Origin: an uncultured bacterium
GTDB lineage: Bacteria > Hydrogenedentota > Hydrogenedentia > Hydrogenedentales > CAILVY01
Assembly: GCA_937951485.1 (NCBI GenBank)
Contig: CALEDJ010000039.1
Span: 1 to 62,987 of the forward strand
Direction of reading: 5' to 3'
Length of the DNA stretch: 62,987 nt
In this document: in pieces, positions 46,605 to 62,506 of the stretch
Layout: every line of letters begins with the position of its first letter
Position numbering within the stretch: the stretch's first letter is position 1
Made by a program: the position numbers and the translations under genes
Notes under the pieces: generated by a model
What the model was told of the DNA's origin: nothing
Database searches by the model: none
The model's input: only the letters and a program-made list of their open reading frames with translations

Positions 46605-47765
46605 CTAATCTGTTTTGACGGTCTCTGCGGGGGAATGCTCCTGAACAGCATCGCGGAGGATGACGGTGAAGGTGGTTCCCTTGTCGGGTTCGCTTTCGAC
46701 CTGAATGTCGCCGTTGTACATTACGGTCAATTTCTTGAGAATCGAGAGGCCGAGTCCGCTGCCGAGAATGTCCTTGGTCCTGGCGTTCTTGATGCGCACG
46801 AATTCCTGGAAGAGTTTGGCACAATCCGCTTTGCTCATGCCGATGCCGGTGTCCGCCACGCGGATGACCGCCGTTGCGTCCCGGCGTTCGACGGTTACGT
46901 CCACACGACCGTTGTCCCGGTTGTATTTGATGGCGTTGGACACAAGGTTGTTGAGCACAATGTCCATTTCGGAGCGGTCGCCCCATAACGGCACGGGACC
47001 ATCAGCATGCAATTGCAGCGTAATATTGCGCGCGTTTGCTTCCGGGGCAAAGGTGTCGAGCGCATGTCGCGCGACTTCGGCCAAATCCAGGTTCGCGATT
47101 TCCCGTTTGCGTTCGCCCGACTCGATGCGTGTGAGGTCGAGCAGATCGGCGATCATTTTGCGCATGTATTCCGTGCGCGTAAGACAGCGGTCCACCATCG
47201 GTATGACCACCTTCGGATCATATCCGACACTGCCGTCCTTCAGCACCTGAAGATATCCCTCGATGGCGTTGAGAGGCGCCTTGAGTTCGTGGGCGAGCAC
47301 GGAAATGAACTGGAACCGAACCTTGCGCTTTTCCGCCGCCAGTTCCCGCGCGTGCCGCGCCACAACGAGATGTTCCGCCGCCTTGCGGACGGTATTCTTG
47401 AGGTCGGCGGGGGTGAACGGCTTGGGCAGGAAATCATATGCGCCCTGCTTGGTGGCGCGCACCGCCGTCTCAATCGAGGCGTAGGCAGTAATCATGATGG
47501 TGAGCATATCCAGGTTCATCTCCGAGATAATGTCGAGCGCTTCGATCCCACTCATCCCCGGAAGTTTGTTGTCCAACAATAAAATATGTTGCGGTGTTTC
47601 CCGGATGATCTCCAATGCCTGCTCCGCGCTTTCCGCCTCGGTCGTCTCGAAATGAATCTCCTTGTCAAAATTCGGCACCTGAACAATAAAACCACGCAGC
47701 ACCCGCGCCACCCCCGTCCGGATCCCAAGTTCATCGTCCACCACAAGCACTTTCATCAATTCCAC
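46605..47765 (-). CDS. receiver domain-histidine kinase protein
   Basis: The 386-residue soluble protein has an N-terminal receiver domain (acidic pocket Asp10/Asp11, phospho-acceptor Asp65 in LLLDNKLPG, Lys115 in LPKPF), then a HisKA dimerisation domain with the phospho-His at 159 (SVLAHELKAPLNAIEG) and an HATPase domain (NNLVSNAIKYNRDNG, DTGIGM, GSGLGLSIL). The receiver leads the kinase, so it can both receive and send phosphate. There is no membrane segment and no DNA-binding domain. A GTG start at 47765 has AAAGGAG eight bases upstream. It lies 40 nt after the Fe-S sensor kinase, in the same operon. Confidence 0.9.
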   Translation of the reverse strand: MELMKVLVVDDELGIRTGVARVLRGFIVQVPNFDKEIHFETTEAESAEQALEIIRETPQHILLLDNKLPGMSGIEALDIISEMNLDMLTIMITAYASIETAVRATKQGAYDFLPKPFTPADLKNTVRKAAEHLVVARHARELAAEKRKVRFQFISVLAHELKAPLNAIEGYLQVLKDGSVGYDPKVVIPMVDRCLTRTEYMRKMIADLLDLTRIESGERKREIANLDLAEVARHALDTFAPEANARNITLQLHADGPVPLWGDRSEMDIVLNNLVSNAIKYNRDNGRVDVTVERRDATAVIRVADTGIGMSKADCAKLFQEFVRIKNARTKDILGSGLGLSILKKLTVMYNGDIQVESEPDKGTTFTVILRDAVQEHSPAETVKTD

Positions 47766-47805: not shown

Positions 47806-49860
47806 TTATTCTATCATTTCCGGAAAATCCTGATTTCCCGAAGATCGCGACAATGTTTCCTGCGGCGCCCCATGGCGCGGCAGCGTCACCGTGAAAGTGC
47901 TTCCCGTGGGACCGCTGCCGGGGTCGGCATTGGATTCCACGGTGATGTTCCCCCGATGCATCTTGACAATGCCGTGGGATACAGCCAAGCCCATCCCGGT
48001 CCCTTTTTCCCCTGCCTTGGTAGTGAAAAACGGTTCGAATATCTTTGAAAAATGCTCCTTGGGGATGCCGGTGCCGGTGTCGCGCACCGAAACACGAATC
48101 TCGTCCGGATCGCCCCACAAGCGGATAACCAGTTCGCCGCCCTGAGGCATGGCCTGGAGGGCGTTGCTGACCAGGTTGTTCAGGACCTGTGTGATCTGAT
48201 CGCGGTCAACGGACGCCAGCGGGTCGTCCAATTCATTTATAAAACGGACCGTCACGCCGTTTGGAACGGGAATCAAACGGAGCGCGCCTTCCGTGAGTTG
48301 CGCAATATCCGTTTCCTGCAAGGTGAGCCTGTTCTGCCGGGCGAAATGCAGCAGGCCGGCCACGATCTTTTTGCATCGGTCAGCCTGCGCCGCAATCAAT
48401 GAGAGGTCCTCTCTGATGGGTCCGTCGTGCGCATGTTCTTCCAGGAGCATATGTGCGTACATCAGCACCACGCCGAGAGGATTGTTCAATTCGTGTGCGA
48501 TGCCCGCCGCCAACTGACCCATGCTCGCCAGTTTTTCCGCCTGCACAAGAATCTGCTGCGTATGCGCCAGTTTTTCCTTCGAGACTGCCAGGTTTTGCAC
48601 CGTCTGCCGCAACCGCTCAATGGTATAGGGGAGACACATCTCGTTTTCCGCCAAGCCCTGGTAAATTGCCACGGCATGTTCACGGCAGGTCGCATAGCCG
48701 CACGCGCCGCAATTCAATTCGTCCTCGGCGCTGTATTTGCCCATGCGCTCCAGGATCGCCGCCAGTTCATGAAAAGACGGCTCCGGCGTGCGCCGGTCTT
48801 CAGGCGAAAATCTGCGCGACAGGTCCAATCCTTCAAACAGGGGCTGCTGCCGACGCAGTTGTTCAGGGTCAATGGAGGCGAGGCGCGTTCGCACGTACCG
48901 CCCGATGCGGGTCTTGCGGCGATAGAGGGGGCCTTTGTCACCGATTCCCGGACCCATCACGCACCCCTCGCAGGCCATCACCTCCAGCAGGCGCGCATGC
49001 CAGAAACCTGAATAAAACTCCTTGACCGCCTCCACGAAGCGGGTCCGTCCATCCGCCACCACGATTTCATCCGTCGCCAGGTTTTCCGGTATTCCCGCCG
49101 ACTGCAACAAGCCCCGACTTACGGGGAACAGGCGTCCCCGGCCCGCCAGCGGTGGATCAAATTCCGACCATGTCACCCTTTCCGGCGACAGACCGCCCTT
49201 GTGCAACATGCGACGCAATTCCTGAAAGGTCAGCACCGCATCTACGTCATAGGAAAACCGGTCAGCCTTTGCCTCGCCTTTCTTGGCAATACACGGGCCG
49301 ACGAACACAACCGGCGTTTCCGATCCATACAGTACTTTCAGGGCGCGGGATGCGGCGACCATCGGAGACACTATCGGCGCCAGCGCATCCACCAATTCGG
49401 GATAATAGCGCTCCACGTAGGTCACTACCGCCGGACAGGTCGTGGCTATGTATTGCTTGTCGCCCGCTTTGCCCAACAAACCCTTGTAGGCTTCGGCCAC
49501 CAGGTCCGCACCCGCAGCGACCTCAACAACATATCGGAATCCCAGTGCGCGCAACGCGCCTACCAGCGCACGATGATCCCAGTCGTCAAATTCCGCCGGA
49601 AAACTCGGCGCGACGATCGCCGCCGCGTCGCCGCCACAAAGCAGCATCTCCACCTCCGCAATCGAATCATAAACCTGTTTCGCCTGCTGCCCACAGACCC
49701 GCACGCAGTTTCCGCACCCGATGCAGCGTTCAGTAATCACCTCCGCCTGTCCGTCAACGATACGTATCGCCTTGGCTGGACATTCCCGGACACAGGTGTA
49801 ACACACGCGGCACCGCTCCTTGATGGTCCGCACCAGCGGAATGTCCGCTGACTCGCGCAT
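47806..49860 (-). CDS. hydrogenase-like Fe-S sensor histidine kinase
   Basis: This 684-residue protein combines redox and signalling modules. Two [4Fe-4S] ferredoxin motifs lie at Cys17/20/23/27 and Cys46/49/52/56. An [FeFe]-hydrogenase-like domain follows with three H-cluster motifs: ATTCPA (Cys142), GPCIAKKGE (Cys190) and MACEGCVMGPG (Cys297/Cys300). A further Fe-S motif is CGACGYATC (Cys384/387/392, with Cys409). The kinase has phospho-His456 (GIAHELNNP) and an HATPase domain (NNLVSNALQAM, DTGTGIP, GTGMGL). The proton-shuttle Cys of catalytic [FeFe] enzymes (CCP) is Thr here (TCP), as expected for a sensor. The start at 49860 is supported by AAAGGAGG. It sits divergently from the [NiFe] hydrogenase operon. 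Confidence 0.88.
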   Translation of the reverse strand: MRESADIPLVRTIKERCRVCYTCVRECPAKAIRIVDGQAEVITERCIGCGNCVRVCGQQAKQVYDSIAEVEMLLCGGDAAAIVAPSFPAEFDDWDHRALVGALRALGFRYVVEVAAGADLVAEAYKGLLGKAGDKQYIATTCPAVVTYVERYYPELVDALAPIVSPMVAASRALKVLYGSETPVVFVGPCIAKKGEAKADRFSYDVDAVLTFQELRRMLHKGGLSPERVTWSEFDPPLAGRGRLFPVSRGLLQSAGIPENLATDEIVVADGRTRFVEAVKEFYSGFWHARLLEVMACEGCVMGPGIGDKGPLYRRKTRIGRYVRTRLASIDPEQLRRQQPLFEGLDLSRRFSPEDRRTPEPSFHELAAILERMGKYSAEDELNCGACGYATCREHAVAIYQGLAENEMCLPYTIERLRQTVQNLAVSKEKLAHTQQILVQAEKLASMGQLAAGIAHELNNPLGVVLMYAHMLLEEHAHDGPIREDLSLIAAQADRCKKIVAGLLHFARQNRLTLQETDIAQLTEGALRLIPVPNGVTVRFINELDDPLASVDRDQITQVLNNLVSNALQAMPQGGELVIRLWGDPDEIRVSVRDTGTGIPKEHFSKIFEPFFTTKAGEKGTGMGLAVSHGIVKMHRGNITVESNADPGSGPTGSTFTVTLPRHGAPQETLSRSSGNQDFPEMIE

Positions 49861-50197
49861 CCGTCCTCCTTTGGTCGCGCAGCCCCGCAACATCAGGAAA
49901 CGTGGAGACGCTTCTGTCTCACAACGCCTGGCGATTTGTGCGACATCCGTATTCTAACCGGAAAAGCCGCGGATTGCACGAACGATGCGGGGGAGATTCT
50001 ACGAGAATATCAGTCAAGATTTTCAGCGCTGCGCACACCTGCCTCTTTTTTTTTGCGATACGCGCAACTTCATGGGAGCACGCTTCTTCTGAAAAGAAGT
50101 CGCGTTCGAGCATTCTGGTTTGCACATATTTTACCGTGATTTTTCTGGAAAAAAGAGAGAATCAAGATATACCTAACGGTAAATACAAATAATAGAT

Positions 50198-50238: not shown

Positions 50239-50534
50239 TAATGTGGATTGAAAACCGCGCTGTTACGTTCTATAACGATCGGTAAGTTCGCCCCAAAGTA
50301 GCGCCCGGATCTCGTAGCGCGCAGCGCTGCAAGCGCGGTCGGTACATGGCATGGACGCAGTCCATCGTCACTGGTGAACATAGTGGCAGTAGAATGCGAT
50401 TCAGGAATTTGGGAAGCCTCAATGCGTCCGCGGGCAAACAGGCAACCGGCAGCGCGCAACCGGTGTTGCACGATTGCAGGACTTGTCGGCAAGGACGCAA
50501 AGGCGTTTCCCGCAACGGTGGAGGCAAGGAAGGC

Positions 50535-52313
50535 ATGGCAGAGGACATGAGAAGTTTGGTGAACCAGACGGTGGAGCGGTTTGGCAAAGACCGGCACCGC
50601 CTGATGGATATTGCGAGGGCGCTCCATGCCAGGTTGGGGTATCTGTCCGAGGAAACCATCGGCCACACTGCCCAGGCGCTTGGCATTCATCGGGTGGAAG
50701 TCCGCGACATGGTCAGTTTCTACTCGTTCTTTTCGCGTAAGAAACAGGGCAAGACGGTGATCCACCTGTGCAATGCGGTGGTGGAGCGCATGAAGGGCGC
50801 AGACGCAGTGGGTCGGGCCTTTGAACGGGAACTCGGCATTCATTTTGGCGAAACCACGCCGGACGATGCCATCACGTTGCATCACACGGCCTGTATCGGC
50901 CTGTCCGACCAAGCGCCCAGCGCACTCATCAACGGCATCCCGTTTACAAATCTCAAGCCGGAAGATGTGCCGGGTATTGTCAAGGCCATACGTGAAGGCG
51001 AAGACATGTTGAACATGCCCCAGGCGGAGGTGGACTCGAATGTGCGCCGTCCGGGCGAAGTGATTTTTGCGCCCATGGAGCGCGGCGCCGCGATTCGCAA
51101 AGCCATCAACATGACTCCGGAATCGGTCATCAATGAGATCAACAAGGGGCGCCTGCGCGGGCGCGGCGGCGCGGGATTTCCCACCGCGATGAAGTGGGAT
51201 TTCTGCCGCAAGGCAAAGGGGAACGCGCATTATCTTGTCTGCAACGCGGACGAGGGTGAGCCGGGCACTTTCAAGGACCGGGCCATTTTACAGGAATGCC
51301 CTGACCTGGTGTTTGAGGGCATGACCGTTGCCGGCTACGCCATCGGCGCGCGTGAAGGCATCATGTATCTCCGAGGGGAATACGAATATCTGCTGCCATC
51401 GCTGGAACGGGTGCTCGCCAAGCGCCGCCATTTGGGGTTGCTTGGAGAGAATATCTGCGGCTGTGAAGGTTTCTCCTTCAATATCCGCATTCAGATGGGC
51501 GCAGGCGCATATGTCTGCGGCGAGGAATCAGCGTTGCTGGAATCCGCCGAAGGCAAGCGCGGCGCACCGCGCGACCGGCCCCCCTTCCCCGTGCAGAAAG
51601 GATACAAGGGCGAACCGACATCGGTGAACAACGTCGAAACCCTGTGCTGCGCGGCCCGCATTCTGGACCGGGGCGGCGAATGGTTCGCCTCGATGGGATC
51701 CCGCGACTCCACGGGTACGAAACTGTTGAGTGTCTCGGGCGACTGCGAGCATCCAGGCGTCTATGAATTGCCGTATGGCATCACGGTAAAGAAACTCATC
51801 GACATGGTGGGCGCATCCGACGCTCAGGCGGTGCAGGTGGGCGGCCCTTCGGGACGCTGCCTTGCCCCGAAGGATTTTGGACGCAGCATCTCCTTTGAAG
51901 ACGTCCCCACCGGCGGTTCGGTGATTATCATCGGACCGGAACGCGACCTGCTGGAATGTGTGCGCCAGTTCACGGAATTCTTCGTGGAGGAATCCTGCGG
52001 CTGGTGCGTGCCATGCCGTTCCGGAACCACCATTCTGCTGAAAACGCTCGAAAAGGTCATGGAAGGGCGGGGCAGCCGATCGGACTTGGCCAATCTCGAA
52101 AAACTCGGCAAGACGGTCAAAACAATGAGCCGTTGCGGACTGGGCCAGACCGCAGCAAATCCAATCCTGACCACGATCAACGGCTTCCCTGATCTATATG
52201 AAGCACGAATCAAGCACGAAGAATATACTCCCGCGTTTGATTTCAAGAAGGCGTTGGAAGTGGGTTGCGAAGCCGCGGGCAGAAATCTTGAACTGGAAGG
52301 GATTCACGTATGA
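50535..52313 (+). CDS. hoxF: NAD-linked hydrogenase diaphorase subunit HoxF (NuoE-NuoF fusion)
   Basis: The 592-residue flavoprotein joins a NuoE-like thioredoxin-fold domain (about 1-145) to a NuoF-like domain. FMN and NAD(H) segments are GRGGAGFPTAMKW (210-221) and CNADEGEPGTFKDRAIL (236-252); the [4Fe-4S] ligands are Cys488/491/494 and Cys534. In the NuoE part only two of four [2Fe-2S] ligands remain: Cys79 and Cys120, with Glu84 and Ser124 where Cys is expected. That cluster is therefore probably absent. It transfers electrons between the hydrogenase and NAD(P). The start at 50535 follows AAGGAAGG. It overlaps hoxU by 4 nt. Confidence 0.92.
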   Translation: MAEDMRSLVNQTVERFGKDRHRLMDIARALHARLGYLSEETIGHTAQALGIHRVEVRDMVSFYSFFSRKKQGKTVIHLCNAVVERMKGADAVGRAFERELGIHFGETTPDDAITLHHTACIGLSDQAPSALINGIPFTNLKPEDVPGIVKAIREGEDMLNMPQAEVDSNVRRPGEVIFAPMERGAAIRKAINMTPESVINEINKGRLRGRGGAGFPTAMKWDFCRKAKGNAHYLVCNADEGEPGTFKDRAILQECPDLVFEGMTVAGYAIGAREGIMYLRGEYEYLLPSLERVLAKRRHLGLLGENICGCEGFSFNIRIQMGAGAYVCGEESALLESAEGKRGAPRDRPPFPVQKGYKGEPTSVNNVETLCCAARILDRGGEWFASMGSRDSTGTKLLSVSGDCEHPGVYELPYGITVKKLIDMVGASDAQAVQVGGPSGRCLAPKDFGRSISFEDVPTGGSVIIIGPERDLLECVRQFTEFFVEESCGWCVPCRSGTTILLKTLEKVMEGRGSRSDLANLEKLGKTVKTMSRCGLGQTAANPILTTINGFPDLYEARIKHEEYTPAFDFKKALEVGCEAAGRNLELEGIHV

Positions 52314-53026
52314 GTAAGGATGCGGTGACTTTCACCATTGACGGCGTGGAAGTGAAAGCAAAGCCGGACCAGACGATCATGGAGGCGGCCGATGCCGCCG
52401 GCATTTACATTCCCAGGCTTTGCTATCACAAGGACCTTTTGCCCGGCGGTCACTGTCGGGTCTGCACGGTGCGCGTAAACGGACGCCCCGCGAACGCATG
52501 CACCTTCCCGGTCAACTCGGGCATCGTCGTCGAGAACGATACCGAGGAACTCAAAGCGCTGCGGCGCGACATCATCGAGATGCTCTTCGTCGAGGGCAAT
52601 CACTACTGTCCTTCCTGCGAAGCGAGCGGAAAATGCGAGTTGCAGGCCATGGCATACCGGCTTGAACTGCTGACCCCGCAGATGCCTTATGCCTGGCCGA
52701 AACGCGAACTCGACGCCACGCATCCCGATGTCTATCTGGACCGCGACCGCTGCATTCTATGCGGCCGCTGCGTGCGCGCTTCCGTGCAACTTGACGGCAA
52801 GCGTGTCTTCGGATTTGAAAACCGCGGCGCACAGAAACGGATTGCCGTGGACAGCGCAACGGGCATGGGCGACACCGACTTGTCCGCCAAAGATCGGGCC
52901 GCAAGCATATGCCCTACGGGCTGTCTCACCATCAAACGCCAGGGATATCTCACGCCCGTGGGCAAACGCCCCTATGACAAGGTTCCCATCGGTTCCGATA
53001 TTGAAAAGAAACAGGCCGCGGGTTGA
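52310..53026 (+). CDS. hoxU: hydrogenase diaphorase subunit HoxU
   Basis: The 238-residue iron-sulfur protein matches HoxU / the N-terminal part of NuoG. Ligands visible: [2Fe-2S] Cys38, Cys49, Cys52, Cys64; His-Cys3 [4Fe-4S] His98, Cys100, Cys103, Cys109; another [4Fe-4S] Cys148/151/154 with Cys201 or Cys205. It links HoxF to the hydrogenase dimer. It overlaps hoxF by 4 nt and precedes hoxY by 29 nt. Confidence 0.93.
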   Translation: MSKDAVTFTIDGVEVKAKPDQTIMEAADAAGIYIPRLCYHKDLLPGGHCRVCTVRVNGRPANACTFPVNSGIVVENDTEELKALRRDIIEMLFVEGNHYCPSCEASGKCELQAMAYRLELLTPQMPYAWPKRELDATHPDVYLDRDRCILCGRCVRASVQLDGKRVFGFENRGAQKRIAVDSATGMGDTDLSAKDRAASICPTGCLTIKRQGYLTPVGKRPYDKVPIGSDIEKKQAAG

Positions 53027-53055
53027 CGGCGAAGCGCTAAGAGAGGGTTGACACA

Positions 53056-53595
53056 ATGACAAAACCATTAGTCGCGACCGGACACTTCACGGGATGCTTC
53101 GGATGTCATATGTCTTTGCTCGACATTGACGAACGCATCCTGGACCTGGTCCAACTGGTCGAATTTGACAAATCCCCCATCAACGATATCAAAACCTTCA
53201 ACCGGCCCGTGGATATCGGTATTATTGAGGGGGGCGTCAGCAATTCGGAAAACGTGGAATTCCTGCGGGAATTCCGCAAGTACTGCAAAATTCTCGTGGC
53301 CATCGGTTCCTGCGCGCTGACCGGCGGCGTCCCCGCCATGCGCAACACCGTCCCCCTCAAGGAATGCCTGCAGGAAGCGTACCTGGACGGACCAACGATC
53401 GTGAATGGGGTCATCCCCAACGATCCCGAACTGCCCATCCTGCTGGACCGCGTCTATCCCTGCCATGAAGTCGTCAAGATAGACTACTTTTTGCCGGGGT
53501 GCCCGCCGTCCGGCGATACCCTGTTCAACGCGATTGTCGCCCTGCTCAAGGGCGACGCGCTGGCCCTGCCGTATGAACTCGTCAAATACGACTGA
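53056..53595 (+). CDS. hoxY: [NiFe] hydrogenase small subunit HoxY
   Basis: The 179-residue protein is a short, signal-less small subunit of a group 3 cytoplasmic [NiFe] hydrogenase. Proximal-cluster motifs are TGCFGCHMS (Cys14/Cys17), IGSCALTGGVPAMR and FLPGCPPSGD. The lack of the extra C-terminal ferredoxin-type cluster region fits HoxY, which carries a single [4Fe-4S]. It lies between hoxU and hoxH. Confidence 0.95.
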   Translation: MTKPLVATGHFTGCFGCHMSLLDIDERILDLVQLVEFDKSPINDIKTFNRPVDIGIIEGGVSNSENVEFLREFRKYCKILVAIGSCALTGGVPAMRNTVPLKECLQEAYLDGPTIVNGVIPNDPELPILLDRVYPCHEVVKIDYFLPGCPPSGDTLFNAIVALLKGDALALPYELVKYD

Positions 53596-53612
53596 TAGGA
53601 GGTGAACACACC

Positions 53613-55061
53613 ATGGCGAAAACGGCGACACAAGGCAAACGAAAAATCACCATCAATCCCGTCACGCGCGTCGAAGGCCACGGAAAAGTGACGCTTCACC
53701 TCGACGATGCGGGCCATATCGAACAGGCCCGATTCCACATCATCGAGTTCCGAGGCTTCGAGCGTTTCGTGCAGGGGCGTTTCTACTGGGAGGCCCCGAC
53801 AATCGTGCAGCGCCTGTGCGGCATCTGTCCGGTGAGCCACCATCTCGCCGCGTCCAAGGCGATGGATGTCATCGTCGGCGCGGACAAGATCACGCCCACC
53901 GCCGAAAAAATGCGGCGGCTCATGCACTATGGACAGACCTTCCAGTCGCATGCGATGCACTTCTATCACCTGTGCTCCCCCGACTTGCTCTTCGGGTTCG
54001 ACGCGCCGGTCGAAAAGCGGAACGTTATCGCGGTCATCGAAGCGGCCCCCGAAACGGCGACCCATGCGGTCCTCATGCGCAAATATGGTCAGGAAATCAT
54101 CAAGGCCACCTGCGGCAAAAAGGTTCACGGCACCGGCTCCATTCCCGGCGGCATGAACAAGAATCTCAGCATCGAAGAACGCGATGTGTTCCTCAAGGAC
54201 ATTGATACGATGCTGGAATGGTCCGTAGAAGCGCTCAATCTCTGCAAGAAAATTACCTTGGAGAAGAAGGATTTTCTGCTGGCTTTCGGGGCCTTCGATT
54301 CCAACCACGTCGGCATCGTCCGGGAGGATGGCTGCCTGGACCTCTATGACGGCAAACTGCGCGCGAAGGCCGCTGACGGCGCGATCATCTTCGATCAGGT
54401 CGCCCCGGCGGATTACCTCGACTACATCGCCGAGGAGGTGCGCCCGTGGAGTTACATGAAGTTCCCCTTTATCCGCTCACTGGGCAAAGAGAAGGGCTGG
54501 TACCGCGTCGGTCCGCTTGCGCGCATTAACATCTGCGACTACATTGATACGCCCATCGCCGAGAAGGAACGTCAGGAGTTCATGGCCTTGGGCGGCGGCA
54601 AACCGATCAATGCGAGCATGGCCTATCACTGGGCGCGGATGATCGAGTTGGTGCATTCCGCGGAGAAAATCAAGGAACTGCTCAACGACTCTGATCTGCA
54701 GGGTGACAAACTGGTCACTTCCGGCAAGCGCCGCAATCGTGGCGTCGCATGGATTGAAGCGCCGCGCGGCACCCTTTTCCACCACTACGAAGTGAACGAC
54801 CGGGACCAGATTACGCTCGCTAATCTAATCGTCTCCACCACGAACAACAACGAGGCCATGAATCGTGTCGTACAAGTGGTTGCGAAACAGTACCTTGAAG
54901 GCAAGGAGATTACGGAAGGGCTGCTCAACCACATCGAGGTGGGCATCCGCGCCTACGATCCCTGCCTCAGTTGCGCCACCCATGCGCTCGGCCAGATGCG
55001 CCTGCACGTGCAATTGGTAGGCGCGGACGGCGCGGTGCTGGATGAGAAATATCGCGGGTGA
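53613..55061 (+). CDS. hoxH: [NiFe] hydrogenase large subunit HoxH
   Basis: The 482-residue catalytic subunit carries the nickel-iron ligands: Cys69/Cys72 in RLCGICPVSHHLA and Cys451/Cys454 in DPCLSCATH. A 25-residue tail follows His457 (starting ALGQMRL), the substrate of the maturation endopeptidase encoded next. It uses or makes H2 coupled to NAD(P) through HoxFU. AGGAGG lies before the ATG. Hyp maturation genes needed for the NiFe(CN)2CO centre are not in the window and must be elsewhere. Confidence 0.96.
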   Translation: MAKTATQGKRKITINPVTRVEGHGKVTLHLDDAGHIEQARFHIIEFRGFERFVQGRFYWEAPTIVQRLCGICPVSHHLAASKAMDVIVGADKITPTAEKMRRLMHYGQTFQSHAMHFYHLCSPDLLFGFDAPVEKRNVIAVIEAAPETATHAVLMRKYGQEIIKATCGKKVHGTGSIPGGMNKNLSIEERDVFLKDIDTMLEWSVEALNLCKKITLEKKDFLLAFGAFDSNHVGIVREDGCLDLYDGKLRAKAADGAIIFDQVAPADYLDYIAEEVRPWSYMKFPFIRSLGKEKGWYRVGPLARINICDYIDTPIAEKERQEFMALGGGKPINASMAYHWARMIELVHSAEKIKELLNDSDLQGDKLVTSGKRRNRGVAWIEAPRGTLFHHYEVNDRDQITLANLIVSTTNNNEAMNRVVQVVAKQYLEGKEITEGLLNHIEVGIRAYDPCLSCATHALGQMRLHVQLVGADGAVLDEKYRG

Positions 55062-55066
55062 TCGCA

Positions 55067-55900
55067 ATGCCGGGCAAGGGCGTTCTGGTGATAGGCTATG
55101 GGAATCCGGGACGCCGTGACGACGGCTTGGGGCCGGTTTTCGCCGAGGAATTGGAGACGTTGCGCCTGCCCGGTGTTGACAGCGACGCGACCTATCAGTT
55201 GAATATCGAAGACGGCGCGGCAATTGCCGCATACCCGAGGGTGGTCTTCGCCGATGCCAGTGTGGACGCAGCGGAACCCTTCGAGTGGCGACGCATCGCC
55301 GCGGCCTCGGAAATCGCGTTCAGCAGCCACGCAATGTCGCCTGAAGCGGTTCTGGCGGTCTGTGAAGAACATTTCCACAGCCGTCCGGAAGCGTGGGTGC
55401 TGGCGATTCGTGGATATGACTTTGAATTCGCCGAAGGCCTTTCGCCCCAGGCGCGTAAAAACTGCAACGAGGCGCTGGACTTTATCCAGGCGCTGATACG
55501 CTTTTGGAGGGAAGAGACCATGGAATCCAAGAAAAAGACCATTCTCGCCATTGACGACGATCCGGATATCCGGGCGGCCCTGCGCGTGGTGCTGGAGGCG
55601 GCCGGCTTCTCCGTGGGCGAGGCGGCCAACGGCGAAGAAGGACTGGAAGTGGCCAACCGCATCAAGCCCGACGCGGTCATCTGCGACCTCATGATGGAGA
55701 CCGTTGACTCCGGAAGCACGGTGGCCCTGAAACTCAGGGAATCCGGCTACAGCGGCCCCATCTACATGCTCAGCAGCGCCGGCGACGCTGTGCAGTACAA
55801 TCTGGATGCCCGCGCCCTCGGCCTTTCGGGCATTTTTCAGAAACCCATTGAACCGAAGACCCTCGTGAAAACGCTCAAGGCCGAATTGTTGGGCGAATAA
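55067..55900 (+). CDS. hoxW: hydrogenase maturation protease fused to a CheY-like receiver
   Basis: The frame encodes 277 residues. Residues 1-150 are a hydrogenase maturation endopeptidase (HycI/HoxW family) with metal-site residues Asp19 (GNPGRRDDGLG), Asp63 (VFADASVD) and His88 (SSHAMSP). Residues 152-277 are a receiver domain: acidic pocket Asp163-Asp165, phospho-acceptor Asp207 (VICDLMME) and Lys259 (FQKPIEP). No stop separates them. A GGAGGG precedes an in-frame ATG at 55520, so a free receiver may also be made. ATG at 55067 follows GGTGA; GTG at 55058 overlaps the hoxH stop. It follows hoxH directly and completes the hox operon. Confidence 0.92.
   Translation: MPGKGVLVIGYGNPGRRDDGLGPVFAEELETLRLPGVDSDATYQLNIEDGAAIAAYPRVVFADASVDAAEPFEWRRIAAASEIAFSSHAMSPEAVLAVCEEHFHSRPEAWVLAIRGYDFEFAEGLSPQARKNCNEALDFIQALIRFWREETMESKKKTILAIDDDPDIRAALRVVLEAAGFSVGEAANGEEGLEVANRIKPDAVICDLMMETVDSGSTVALKLRESGYSGPIYMLSSAGDAVQYNLDARALGLSGIFQKPIEPKTLVKTLKAELLGE
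55506..55522 (+). promoter_or_regulatory. internal ribosome binding site inside the protease-receiver frame
   Basis: GGAGGGAAGAGACCATG places a strong Shine-Dalgarno nine bases before an in-frame ATG exactly at the domain junction (Met152). It would allow separate translation of the receiver. Confidence 0.6.
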
Positions 55901-56169: not shown

Positions 56170-56307
56170 TGAAAGGAAACAGGTAAAACAGGAATTTATC
56201 AGATCACAGCCGCGTTTATTTAATCAGGCGCTTTGGTGCTGCATAAGTCCTGATTTGGCACCTTGGAATCCTTCATAAACGAAATTCCCCTTGGAAAGAA
56301 GGCAGAT

Positions 56308-57708
56308 ATGTTGGACACAACAAGCAGTACGATTATTGATTCGGACCGCATTCATGAAGTTCTGGCGCATCGCGCCGCCCCAGACGCGGCACATGTGCGC
56401 GAAGTGTATGACAAGGCGCTTGCACTGAAAGGCCTGGACGAAAATGATGTGGCCCTGCTGGCATCGGTGACTGATCCGGAATTGCTCGAAGAATTGTTCC
56501 ACACGGCGCGGCAGGCGAAGGAAGAGATTTACGGGCGTCGTCTGGTGCTCTTCGCCCCATTGTATGTGTCCAATCTCTGCGGCAATGAATGCAGTTATTG
56601 TGCATTCCGGGTAAGCAACAAGGCGCTGAAACGACGCGCCCTGCGCCAGGAGGAAGTTGCGCGGGAAACGCGGATTCTCATCGAACAGGGACACAAGCGG
56701 GTCCTGCTGGTGGCCGGAGAGGCCTATCCCCAGGAGGGCTTTTCCTACATTCTCAAATGCATCGAGACGATTTACGGTGTTAAGGATGAGAAAGGTGAAG
56801 TCAGGCGGATCAATGTCAATGTGGCCCCATTGACCGTCGAGGAATTCAAGGAACTCAAAGCCGCGAAAATAGGCACCTACCAGTTGTTCCAGGAAACCTA
56901 TCATCGGCCCACCTACGAGCAGGTCCATCTGGCAGGGAAAAAACGTGACTACGATTGGCGCGTCACCGCCGTAGACCGCGCCATGCAGGGCGGCATTGAC
57001 GATGTCGGCGTGGGAGTGTTGTTCGGCCTTTACGACTGGCGTTTCGAGGTGCTTGCGCTCATGCAGCATATTGCCCATCTGGAAGCGCAGTTCGGGGTGG
57101 GTTGCCACACCATCAGCGTGCCGCGCATCGAACCGGCCTTCGGCGCACCGGTTTCCGAACGGCCGCCCTACCCGGTAAGCGACACCGATTTCAAAAAGGT
57201 CGTCGCCATCCTCCGGCTGGCGGTCCCCTACACCGGCATCATCATGTCCACCCGCGAAACCCCGGAAATGCGCCGGGAAACCTTTGCGCTGGGCGTCTCG
57301 CAGATTTCAGCGGGCAGCCGTACCAATCCCGGCGGCTACAACGAAGACGGCGAACAATTCGACGGCAGCCAATTTTCGCTCGGCGATCATCGCAGTCTGG
57401 ACGAGGTGATTCGGGACATCGCCGAACTGGGTTACATTCCATCCTTTTGCACCGGCTGCTACCGGCTGGGGCGCACCGGTGAAGATTTCATGGATCTGGC
57501 CAAACCCGGCCTGATCAAAAATTTTTGCGAGGTGAACGCCCTCAGCACCTTCGTCGAATACCTGGTCAATTACGCTTCGCCGCGAACAAAGAAAGCCGGA
57601 GAACGGTGTATTGCACAGATTCTGGATGCGATGCCTTCTGCTCGACGCAAACGCGCGGAATCACTGATGGACCGCGTGCGCGCCGGTGAAAAAGACGTCT
57701 ATGTTTGA
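56308..57708 (+). CDS. hydG: [FeFe] hydrogenase maturase HydG (tyrosine lyase)
   Basis: The 466-residue radical-SAM enzyme splits tyrosine to supply the CO and CN ligands of the H-cluster. The radical-SAM cluster ligands are Cys91, Cys95 and Cys98 (CGNECSYC, the HydG CX3CX2C form). The C-terminal auxiliary cluster motif CX2CX22C is Cys381, Cys384 and Cys407 (FCTGCYRLGRTGEDF ... KNFC), which separates HydG from ThiH and HydE. The start at 56308 follows AGAAGG. It is separated from the other hyd genes by a repeat cassette and has its own promoter-like site. Confidence 0.97.
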   Translation: MLDTTSSTIIDSDRIHEVLAHRAAPDAAHVREVYDKALALKGLDENDVALLASVTDPELLEELFHTARQAKEEIYGRRLVLFAPLYVSNLCGNECSYCAFRVSNKALKRRALRQEEVARETRILIEQGHKRVLLVAGEAYPQEGFSYILKCIETIYGVKDEKGEVRRINVNVAPLTVEEFKELKAAKIGTYQLFQETYHRPTYEQVHLAGKKRDYDWRVTAVDRAMQGGIDDVGVGVLFGLYDWRFEVLALMQHIAHLEAQFGVGCHTISVPRIEPAFGAPVSERPPYPVSDTDFKKVVAILRLAVPYTGIIMSTRETPEMRRETFALGVSQISAGSRTNPGGYNEDGEQFDGSQFSLGDHRSLDEVIRDIAELGYIPSFCTGCYRLGRTGEDFMDLAKPGLIKNFCEVNALSTFVEYLVNYASPRTKKAGERCIAQILDAMPSARRKRAESLMDRVRAGEKDVYV

Positions 57709-58691: not shown

Positions 58692-60113
58692 ATGGCAGAA
58701 AAACGGTTGCGGATAGAGGGTGATCTTCTCGGCCAACGGGAAGTGGATGGGGACGCCATGCATGGCATCCACACGGTCCGCGCGTTGGTAAATTTTTCCC
58801 TTGCAGGGCGTCCGGCGCACCCGGAATTGACCCGCGCCTACGGCGCGGTGAAATTCGCCTGCGCGCGCGTCAATCGGGAATTGGGCGCCTGGACAAAGGA
58901 CCCGGCGAAAGCGGATGCGATTAGCCGTGCTTGCGAGGAAATGGCCCAAGGCCTTTGGGACGACGCCATATGCGTGGATGCGCTGCAGGGCGGTGCCGGC
59001 ACCAGCACCAACATGAACGTGAACGAAGTCATCGCCAATCGCGCCCTTGAAATTCTCGGTCTGCCGCATGGCGCCTATGAGCGCGTGTCGCCGACCGATG
59101 ATATCAACCTGCACCAATCCACGAACGACACCTATCCCACCGCGCTTAAATTGGCGGCCATCCGCCTCCTGCATCGCCTGGAACGCCGCGTGGTCATGCT
59201 GCAAGAGGCCTTTCAGGAAAAAGAGAAAGAGTTTGCGCATGTGGTCAAGGTGGGGAGGACCCAGTATCAGGATGCCGTGCTCACCACCCTTGGTCGGGAG
59301 ATGGGTGCCTATGCCGAGGCTTTCGGCCGCGACCGCTGGCGAATTTACAAGTGCGAGGAGCGCCTGCGCGTGGTCAATCTCGGGGGTACGGCCATCGGCA
59401 CTGGCATCGCCGCGCCGCGCGGCTATATTTTTCGGGCGGTCGAAGTGCTGCGCGAGATCACCGGCATCGGTTTCGCCCGCGCGGAAAACCTCGTGGACGC
59501 CACCCAGAACTGCGATGTCTTCGTTGAAGTTTCAGGCATTCTCAAAGCATGTGCCACGTCATTAATCAAGGTGTGCACCGACCTGCGCCTGATGTCGTCC
59601 GGTCCGGAAGCGGGGTTGGGGGAAATCCGCCTGCCCCCGATGCAGGCGGGGTCATCCATCATGCCGGGCAAAGTCAATCCCGTAATCCCGGAAGCGGCAA
59701 TCCAAGCGGCCCTCCTCGTCATGGGTTATGATCAGGCCCTTTGCACGGCCTGCGCCATGGGCAGCCTGGAATTGAATCCATTTCTACCCCTGGTCGCCGA
59801 ATGCCTCTTGAACAGTTGCACATTGCTTGAACGCGCCTGCGAAACGCTGGCAACCCGTTGCGTGGCAGGCATCGAGGCCGACGAAGCGCGTTGCCGCGCC
59901 CATGTGGAAGGCTCCACTGCGGTTGCCACCGCCCTGATCCCCGCCATCGGGTACGAACACGCCTGTGAGGTGGCTCGCCGCGCCAAGGAAACTGGACAAA
60001 GCATCCGGGAAATCGTGGTTGCCGAGCGTATTCTGGACGAAAGCGCGTATAATGACCTTATTGCGCCCGAAGCGGTATGCCGCCTCGGCATGCCGGGATT
60101 GCCCCTGCGCTGA
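58692..60113 (+). CDS. aspA: aspartate ammonia-lyase
   Basis: This 473-residue member of the fumarase/aspartase superfamily converts aspartate to fumarate and ammonia. Motifs: GAGTSTNMNVNEV (101-113), the HQSTNDTYPTALKLA block and the signature GSSIMPGKVNP (320-330) with the catalytic serine in the flexible loop. Overall it looks like AspA rather than FumC, although the two are hard to separate by eye. It lies between the TM1266-type gene and hydF, an arrangement also seen in other hydrogenase maturation clusters; ammonia supply for the azadithiolate bridge is a possible role (inference). Confidence 0.9.
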   Translation: MAEKRLRIEGDLLGQREVDGDAMHGIHTVRALVNFSLAGRPAHPELTRAYGAVKFACARVNRELGAWTKDPAKADAISRACEEMAQGLWDDAICVDALQGGAGTSTNMNVNEVIANRALEILGLPHGAYERVSPTDDINLHQSTNDTYPTALKLAAIRLLHRLERRVVMLQEAFQEKEKEFAHVVKVGRTQYQDAVLTTLGREMGAYAEAFGRDRWRIYKCEERLRVVNLGGTAIGTGIAAPRGYIFRAVEVLREITGIGFARAENLVDATQNCDVFVEVSGILKACATSLIKVCTDLRLMSSGPEAGLGEIRLPPMQAGSSIMPGKVNPVIPEAAIQAALLVMGYDQALCTACAMGSLELNPFLPLVAECLLNSCTLLERACETLATRCVAGIEADEARCRAHVEGSTAVATALIPAIGYEHACEVARRAKETGQSIREIVVAERILDESAYNDLIAPEAVCRLGMPGLPLR

Positions 60114-60125
60114 GGAAATAATGCA

Positions 60126-61430
60126 ATGCAATCCACGCCAAAATCCATGCGACTGCACATCGGCCTCTTCGGGCGGCGTAATGCCGGAAAATCCAGTCTG
60201 CTGAACGCGATTACCCGGCAGCAGGTTTCCATTGTCTCCGATTTTGCGGGCACCACCACTGACCCGGTAGAAAAACCCATGGAACTGTTGCCGTTGGGAC
60301 CGGTGCTGTTCATTGACACTGCGGGCATTGATGACATGGGTGCACTGGGTGAACTCCGCATCAAGAAAACCAGGCAGGTTTTCGACCGCACAGATTTGGG
60401 CGTGCTTGTGGCCGAAGCCGGAACCTGGGGCGCTTTTGAAGAGGAGATTCTGCGCGCCCTGAGCGAACGCAATGCCCCGGCGATTGTGGTGTTCAACAAA
60501 ACAGATGTAGCGCGACCGCCGGACGCCGTCATTGAAATGCTCAACACACAAAAAGTCCGTTGGGTGCAGACCGTCGCTTCCGAAGGGCGGGGCATCCAAG
60601 AGTTTCGACAAGCGCTTCTGGACGCCGCTCCAGAGGATTTTGTCAACAATCCGGCCATTCTAGGCGACTTGGTCGGCCCCGGGGAAATGGCCGTCCTGGT
60701 CGTGCCGATTGACAAGGAAGCGCCCAAGGGGCGTCTCATTCTGCCCCAAGTCCAGTCCATCCGCGATTTATTGGATTCCGACGCTTTTTGTATGGTTGTG
60801 AAAGAACGCGAACTGCGCTGCGCCTTGGACCGGTTGAAAACCCCGCCAAAACTGGTAGTCACGGATTCACAAGCCTTTCTGAAAGTGGCGGCAGATGTGC
60901 CGGATGATATTCCTTTAACAAGTTTTTCAATACTTTTTGCCCGTTTTCGTGGAGACTTGACCACGCAAGTGATAGGTACTATGGCCATTGACCGGCTCCG
61001 TGCAGGCGATCGGATTCTGATTGCCGAATCGTGTAGCCATCACCCCATTTCTGACGACATTGGCCGGGTCAAGATTCCCCGCTGGCTGACGCAATATGTC
61101 GGCGGAAAACTCCATTTTGACCATGTCCAGGGACATGATTTCCCTGAAAATCTCCAGGAATACAAACTGGTAATTCATTGCGGGGCTTGCATGACCAATC
61201 GGCGGGCCATGCTGAGCCGCATCCTGCATTGCAAGCAGGCAGGCGTGCCAGTCAGCAACTATGGGTTGACCATCGCCTACAGCCTTGGCATATTCGAGCG
61301 CGCCTTGCAGCCATTCCCCGCCGCCTTGGAAGCCTATCACGCGGAGAAAACACGACTGGCTGGCCGACCGGGCGGAATGCCGCCCGAATCGAATTCGGGC
61401 GCGTCCGATTATGTGTGCATCCGGTCCTGA
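60126..61430 (+). CDS. hydF: [FeFe] hydrogenase maturation GTPase HydF
   Basis: The 434-residue scaffold protein assembles the 2Fe subcluster and hands it to apo-hydrogenase. The N-terminal GTPase has a P-loop GRRNAGKSS (16-24), DTAGIDD and NKTD. The C-terminal cluster ligands are Cys303-x-His305 (SCSHHP) and His351-Cys352-x2-Cys355 (IHCGACM), as in known HydF. GAGG lies ten bases before the ATG at 60126. It is followed after 17 nt by hydE. Confidence 0.97.
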   Translation: MQSTPKSMRLHIGLFGRRNAGKSSLLNAITRQQVSIVSDFAGTTTDPVEKPMELLPLGPVLFIDTAGIDDMGALGELRIKKTRQVFDRTDLGVLVAEAGTWGAFEEEILRALSERNAPAIVVFNKTDVARPPDAVIEMLNTQKVRWVQTVASEGRGIQEFRQALLDAAPEDFVNNPAILGDLVGPGEMAVLVVPIDKEAPKGRLILPQVQSIRDLLDSDAFCMVVKERELRCALDRLKTPPKLVVTDSQAFLKVAADVPDDIPLTSFSILFARFRGDLTTQVIGTMAIDRLRAGDRILIAESCSHHPISDDIGRVKIPRWLTQYVGGKLHFDHVQGHDFPENLQEYKLVIHCGACMTNRRAMLSRILHCKQAGVPVSNYGLTIAYSLGIFERALQPFPAALEAYHAEKTRLAGRPGGMPPESNSGASDYVCIRS

Positions 61431-61447
61431 TCAAGGGAGTGCGTCGT

Positions 61448-62506
61448 ATGCATTTGAGTAAAGAGGAAATTCTCTATTGGCTCAAAGAGGATGACACAGG
61501 CCGTCTGGAGGCCCTGTACGAGGAAGCCGACCGGGTTCGCCGGGAAAATGTGGGGGATGCGGTACACCTGCGCGGGCTGATTGAAATATCAAATATCTGC
61601 TCGCGGGAATGCGGCTATTGCGGTTTACGTGCTGACAATCAGGGCGTGGAACGTTACCGCATGTCGCAGGAGGAAATCCTGCAATGCGCGCGGCAAGCCG
61701 TGGACTACGGCTACGGCACCGTCGTAATGCAGTCCGGTGAGGACTACGGCATCACGCGTGAATGGATGTCAGACCTGATCCGCGCCATCAAAACCGAGAC
61801 CCCGCTGGCGGTCACACTCAGCCTGGGGGAGCGGCCCGATGAGGACCTTGTTGCATGGCGCGAAGCAGGCGCAGACCGGTATCTCTTGCGGTTTGAGACC
61901 TCCGACCCCCAATTGTATTGCATCATCCATCCTGCGCCCAAAGGACGGCCCGGCCGGGACCGCATCGCCATGCTGCGGAGGCTTCGAGAACTTGGCTACG
62001 AAGTCGGCAGCGGTGTCATGGTGGGCATCCCCGGACAGACCTACGCCTCGCTCGCGCATGATATTGCATTGTTTCAGGAATTGGACCTCGACATGGTCGG
62101 CGTCGGCCCCTATATCGCCCATCCCTCAACGCCGTTAGGGTCCCGCGCAGTACTCCCCCTTGCGCCCGAGGGCGAACAAGCGCCCAACTCAGAGGAAATG
62201 ACTTACAAGGTGGTGGCGCTCACGCGCCTCGCCTGTCCCCAGGCAAACATCCCCAGCACCACGGCCCTCGCCACGCTCAATCTCGCCCAAGGGCGCGAAC
62301 TCGGCCTGCAACGGGGCGCAAACATCGTCATGCCCAACCTGACGCCGCCGCAGTACCGCGTTTTGTATGAGATATACCCGGCGAAGGCGTGTATCCAGGA
62401 AGACGCCGTTGCATGTCACACCTGCATGAAAGCGCGCATTCGGTCTATTGGCCGCACCGTGGGCGTGGGATCCGGCGGACGAAAGAGACATGCGGAGAAT
62501 ACCTGA
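61448..62506 (+). CDS. hydE: [FeFe] hydrogenase maturase HydE
   Basis: The 352-residue radical-SAM enzyme acts on the HydG product during H-cluster 2Fe assembly. The cluster ligands are Cys51, Cys55 and Cys58 (CSRECGYC), followed by VVMQSGEDYGITREW and GVGPYIAHPSTPLG typical of HydE. C-terminal cysteines (CHTC region) may hold the optional second cluster. The start at 61448 follows AAGGGAG; an upstream frame overlapping hydF is a shadow. It is the last gene of the maturation operon. Confidence 0.96.
   Translation: MHLSKEEILYWLKEDDTGRLEALYEEADRVRRENVGDAVHLRGLIEISNICSRECGYCGLRADNQGVERYRMSQEEILQCARQAVDYGYGTVVMQSGEDYGITREWMSDLIRAIKTETPLAVTLSLGERPDEDLVAWREAGADRYLLRFETSDPQLYCIIHPAPKGRPGRDRIAMLRRLRELGYEVGSGVMVGIPGQTYASLAHDIALFQELDLDMVGVGPYIAHPSTPLGSRAVLPLAPEGEQAPNSEEMTYKVVALTRLACPQANIPSTTALATLNLAQGRELGLQRGANIVMPNLTPPQYRVLYEIYPAKACIQEDAVACHTCMKARIRSIGRTVGVGSGGRKRHAENT

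Follow-up and report, generated by a model that had tools for sequence, protein, structure and literature searches.

A histidine kinase with an [FeFe]-hydrogenase-like sensor half and a contracted third cysteine motif, encoded beside a [NiFe] hydrogenase operon in an uncultured Hydrogenedentota bacterium

The locus described here raises the question of whether a hydrogenase domain that is altered in all three of its cluster-binding motifs, and that is joined to a histidine kinase, still holds an H-cluster, and what signal such a protein might read. The gene lies in a contig (CALEDJ010000039.1) of an uncultured Hydrogenedentota bacterium, of which the whole stretch analysed, 62,987 nucleotides in length, is referred to as the window; the genome containing it is 4.5 Mb in size and 94% complete. 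The open reading frame, P0001, occupies positions 47806-49893 on the minus strand and encodes 695 amino acids, with a second ATG at 49860 (M12) that coincides with the starts of its paralogues and is likely to be the true start. Pfam matches describe an N-terminal 2x[4Fe-4S] ferredoxin (residues 23-70; C28/31/34/38 and C57/60/63/67), an H-domain (Fe_hyd_lg_C, residues 91-315, E=7.5e-48), a small FeS domain with the motif Cx2Cx4Cx16C (residues 393-422; C395/398/403/420), a HisKA domain (residues 458-520, with H467) and a HATPase_c domain (residues 563-673), while a PAS domain returned no Pfam match. The kinase motifs are intact, and the full set of 16 cysteines to be expected of four clusters is present.

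A sequence-only reading of this gene had drawn attention to three departures from catalytic enzymes, each of which was borne out: a first motif in which the shuttle cysteine is replaced by threonine (A150-T-T152-C153-P-A), a second motif that lacks its preceding methionine (G199-P-C201-I-A-K204-K), and a third motif (E304-V-M306-A-C308-E-G-C311) in which the last two H-cluster cysteines are spaced C-x2-C. On the basis of motif alignment, we take the motif residues of P0001 to be the counterparts of CpI P231, S232, C300, C355, K358, C499 and C503; the position names C299, M353 and M497 follow published usage (PMC8163306, PMC10055695).

When P0001 was compared with 80 homologues from related loci (n=81), the cysteines at the H-cluster ligand places (C153, C201, C308 and C311) were found in all 81 sequences, as were A95, P96, P177, G199 and K204, the N-terminal ferredoxin cysteines, and C395, C398, C403 and C420 of the small FeS domain. 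S97 was kept in 80 (the sole exception being a change to threonine), H467 was likewise kept in 80 (with one gap), and the HisKA histidine and HATPase motifs were retained in every intact family member. Conservation of this strictness indicates that the motifs of P0001 are not the product of chance. Elsewhere the family varies: the shuttle position is threonine in 45 sequences, serine in 26, alanine in 6 and other residues in 4; the residue preceding C308 is cysteine in 44 of the 81 (giving LCCxGC) and alanine in 34; and the methionine at the CpI M497 position, retained in P0001 as M306, is leucine in the other 80.

The three changes had all been read alike as sensor-like, but the first two are standard for group C. 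Glycine in place of M353 is also found in TmHydS (PMC8163306) and in aligned group B sequences, and, with non-cysteine shuttle positions likewise seen in group C, both substitutions are ordinary for sensory enzymes. The third change is special to the kinase clade, in which a C-x-G-C motif is carried by 80 of 81 members, L116 alone having C-x3-C. The longer spacing is found in the three group A enzymes of the window genome and in further aligned group A and group B enzymes, as well as in R. albus HydS (CNGSC), in Acetoanaerobium and Monoglobus homologues, in Hydrogenedentota PAS-type sensors and in C1 proteins. The contracted loop is the sole change that calls a normal bridging cysteine and di-iron site into question. 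No report of a contracted third motif was found in the open-access literature, a result that is not proof of absence. The loop has been conserved across a wide range of bacteria, under metagenome-assembled genome labels that include Hydrogenedentota, Planctomycetota, Armatimonadota, Latescibacterota, Acidobacteriota, Myxococcota, Marinimicrobia, Lentisphaerota, Eisenbacteria, Fermentibacterota and others; in a survey of Planctomycetota at a strict threshold, 8 of 393 genomes (their completeness not given) contained a match. We know of no characterised H-cluster protein that has the C-x2-C form.

A phylogeny had been proposed as a check on the sensor-like reading, and a maximum-likelihood tree that included groups A, B and C was calculated. 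It used the columns of the ferredoxin, H and FeS domains other than those of the third motif, and L116 was not among its rows. All 33 C-x2-C rows formed one clade (support 99/93) outside group A, and all 32 rows beyond it (groups A, B, C1, PAS-type C3 and R. albus HydS) were C-x3-C, such that a single change of state is needed; the junction of the kinase clade with the PAS-type and HydS clade received support of only 90/67. This topology gives a history in which the contraction would have arisen once and then spread over many phyla, with at least one reversal probably having occurred within the kinase clade, given the C-x3-C motif of L116. Assignment of P0001 to group A or to group B1 was ruled out both by the tree and by NCBIfam scores (TIGR02512, 103 bits against a cut-off of 406; TIGR04105, 177 bits against a cut-off of 450).

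The predicted structure shows the sensor half to have a modelled [FeFe]-hydrogenase fold. An AlphaFold2 model built from 63 alignment rows has a mean pLDDT of 86, with values mostly of 91-98 in the H-domain and a poorly predicted helix leading into HisKA; it superimposes on holo-CpI (4xdc) with a Z of 39.4 and an rmsd of 2.8 A over 349 residues at 24% identity, and its kinase part matches ZraS. The hydrogenase structures among the matches listed are all non-sensory enzymes.

Judged by its domain make-up, the protein is the histidine-kinase form of the group C3 'sensory' [FeFe]-hydrogenases, as represented in PMC11406978 by BfuT, from a Caldithrix-type cluster, which comes from the same phylum and has the same combination of H-domain and histidine kinase. 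Kinases of the BfuT type are known; the departure from canonical [FeFe]-hydrogenases, which have C-x3-C, is the C-x2-C loop, a feature that goes unmentioned in the available part of that paper. R. albus HydS and T. maritima TmHydS (group C, M2f) resemble P0001 in their two N-terminal [4Fe-4S] clusters, H-domain and Cx2Cx4Cx16C motif (as defined in PMC8163306), and in the alteration of the C299 and M353 positions. TmHydS, described as retaining its H-cluster ligands, differs in that a PAS domain takes the place of the kinase (PMC10055695), and R. albus HydS in its non-kinase C-terminus, its C-x3-C spacing and the cysteine pair kept in its first motif. The Hydrogenedentota PAS-type group C3 sensors (L161, L163, L169 and others), which form the neighbouring clade of the tree, share the same FeS domain, but their third motif is C-x3-C and they lack a kinase. 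TamHydS (group D, M2e), compared by description, shares the Cx2Cx4Cx16C tail and a non-cysteine shuttle position but stands alone, lacking a kinase (PMC8163306). Since TmHydS and TamHydS, both experimentally studied and altered at C299, M353 and M497, turn over slowly (PMC10055695, PMC8163306), and since P0001 falls outside group A and is joined to an intact HisKA-HATPase unit, the present analysis agrees with the earlier suggestion of a sensor-like module that is not made for fast turnover.

The customary setting of the gene was established from the loci of relatives. Where upstream sequence sufficed, a group A HydA was the gene directly before the sensor (49 of 65 loci); a REC-HK gene lies downstream in 65 of 70 loci with enough flank, and a maturase follows in 28 of 48, the common order being Rex-HydC-HydB-HydA-sensor-REC-(REC-HK)-HydE-HydG-AspA-HydF. 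HydG was found in 45 of 50 genomes outside the Hydrogenedentota that carry the sensor. Within the phylum, four sensor-bearing genomes (G002, G027, G039 and G040), described as near-complete or medium and including two of one genus that are 96% complete (G039 and G040), gave no match to HydE, HydF or HydG. The same four also carry a group A HydA, with P2 and P3 motifs intact in the three that were checked (G002, G039 and G040), and the absence of maturases therefore does not separate an H-cluster from a bare [4Fe-4S] cluster; either one gene cluster is missing from the sequence or the maturases have diverged.

Taken with the motif conservation, these observations lead us to regard P0001 as probably a cytoplasmic histidine kinase that senses H2 (or H2/redox state) by means of an adapted H-cluster, a judgement drawn from sequence that stands somewhat above even, and one in keeping with the H-clusters held by sensory group C and D enzymes (PMC10055695, PMC8163306). 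A redox sensor of hydrogenase descent, in which the contracted motif holds a four-cysteine [4Fe-4S] cubane with no [2Fe] subsite and the kinase reads ferredoxin or the cellular redox state along a chain of [4Fe-4S] clusters, is unlikely by comparison but is the most substantial of the alternatives. It draws on the fact that C-x2-C is a common [4Fe-4S] spacing, here unique to the kinase clade and, in the alignments, absent from every other H-domain compared, including that of R. albus HydS; on the extra cysteine adjoining C308 in more than half of the family, which suggests changed ligation; and on the four genomes with no maturase match. The retained pocket residues could, moreover, reflect shared ancestry, and H2 sensing is unproven even in TmHydS and TamHydS. 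Against this, the A-P pair, the lysine and other pocket residues are invariant over many phyla even though they can be lost: a C1-like ATPase-ferredoxin-H-domain protein of the same genome (L020, 6254-7900), which follows a DRTGG-like open reading frame, retains C-x3-C although both A-P-S and the lysine of the second motif are gone, which indicates that the fold does not simply depend on these residues. The usual operon partners of the sensor, furthermore, are an [FeFe] hydrogenase and HydEFG, and missing sequence is the simpler reading of maturase-free genomes that carry a group A HydA.

The complete [FeFe]-hydrogenase fold and electron-transfer clusters would also be compatible with a slow but real catalytic hydrogenase in which the kinase domain is incidental or degenerate, much as TmHydS and TamHydS keep low activity (PMC10055695, PMC8163306). 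The conservation of kinase motifs in intact members, the REC-HK gene that nearly always lies downstream of the sensor, and the loss of the proton-shuttle cysteine make that account improbable. That the protein is a functionless, degenerate remnant, as its altered motifs relative to group A might suggest, is scarcely credible, being contradicted by metal-ligand and kinase positions that are strictly conserved in 81 sequences and by the presence in one genome of three intact paralogues whose sensor halves are 59-63% identical.

Under the favoured H2-sensing interpretation, HydE, HydF and HydG, encoded 6-13 kb away, would insert the [2Fe] unit of an H-cluster held by C153, C201, C308 and C311, and the shorter C-x2-C loop would shift the bridging cysteine and so tune or slow the site. 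Binding or oxidation of H2 would then alter the state of the cluster, a change that, by way of the C-terminal Cx2Cx4Cx16C domain, may reach the helix leading to the HisKA dimer, from which phosphate would pass to the REC-HK partner and to receiver domains that include one fused to a [NiFe] protease; the presumed outcome is an adjustment of the expression or maturation of the adjoining hydrogenases. The protein works like a soluble histidine kinase under the control of H2 or redox state, with nearby receivers that lack DNA-binding domains.

Those receivers and hydrogenases are encoded on either side of the sensor. Directly downstream (46605-47765, minus strand) is a REC-HisKA-HATPase hybrid that, by Pfam, has no DNA-binding output domain. 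Divergent to the sensor, on the plus strand, is a [NiFe] operon that consists of a fused HoxE/HoxF-like (HydC+HydB-like) NADH subunit (50346-52313) without the C-terminal 2x[4Fe-4S] present in the same genome's FeFe HydB, a HoxU-like subunit (52310-53026), a VhuG-like small subunit (53056-53595) and a VhuA-like large subunit (53613-55061). After it comes a gene in which a hydrogenase maturation protease is joined to a response-regulator receiver domain (55058-55900; TIGR00072 at residues 10-146 and Response_reg at 162-273), a fusion that may tie [NiFe] maturation to the sensor's phosphorelay. There follow, on the same strand, the radical SAM maturase HydG (56263-57708; TIGR03955, 522 bits), aspartate ammonia-lyase (AspA, 58692-60113), the maturation GTPase HydF (60126-61430; TIGR03918, 565 bits) and the radical SAM maturase HydE (61178-62506; TIGR03956, 325 bits), the last given as a mechanical open reading frame whose true start probably lies beyond the end of HydF. 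Scanning the divergent intergenic region between sensor and [NiFe] operon for promoters and terminators yielded nothing above chance.

The window sensor, then, is not beside a group A [FeFe]-hydrogenase. Its counterpart at L053 is likewise divergent to a [NiFe] operon, and L052 has a HoxEF-like neighbour at 74%. According to PMC11406978, nearly all C3 genes in this phylum adjoin A3 hydrogenases, and [FeFe] and [NiFe] hydrogenases rarely occur in one genome, a pattern to which both the window genome and its locus are exceptions. The usual setting of BfuT in that account, beside group A3 HydABC, differs from that of P0001 and fits instead its C34 paralogue, which adjoins a group A [FeFe]-hydrogenase within the Rex-HydCBA-sensor-REC portion of the common order. 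For the C45 paralogue none of the searched partner genes was found within its 15 kb. The third of the sensor-kinase paralogues (L019, 6167-8182) is solitary, with no receiver or hydrogenase neighbours.

Group C and D enzymes have been named H2 sensors mainly by analogy. Since in the kinase clade only a short helix separates the H-domain from the histidine kinase fused to it, both ligand and output become measurable in one soluble protein, and its loop, as a natural and widely conserved variant, can tell whether a di-iron site requires C-x3-C. Tentatively, and with distinctly less confidence than attaches to the sensing role itself, one ancient one-residue deletion may have made a hydrogenase active site into one devoted to signalling (an H-cluster whose bridging geometry is altered and which binds H2 but barely turns it over, or else a hydrogenase fold reduced to a [4Fe-4S] redox sensor), of which one copy in this lineage may have been re-wired from [FeFe] to [NiFe] control.

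Several further features of these loci were recorded. The [NiFe] hydrogenase of the window (50346-55061) combines group 3c-like catalytic subunits (VhuG/VhuA-like) with 3d-like HoxE/F/U partners, its HoxE and HoxF being fused and lacking those C-terminal clusters that are linked to bifurcation. A similar union of [NiFe] small and large subunits with HoxE/F/U-like partners is known from Acetomicrobium mobile (NiFe-HydABCSL; PMC8880783), where the operon also includes a gene called HisK; by comparison, the window HoxF-like subunit is without the extra C-terminal clusters. The protease-receiver fusion is in frame in two genomes, that of the window and that of L053 (4315-5229), at 68% identity, and AspA recurs within the HydE/G/F clusters of relatives in many phyla. 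Finally, the group A HydA proteins of L017 (6540-8264), L016 (7334-9238) and L018 (7008-8774), together with those of L136, L137, L139 and L148, carry the sequence TSCSPGW, in which the shuttle cysteine is retained and the position of the cubane-ligand cysteine is occupied by serine.
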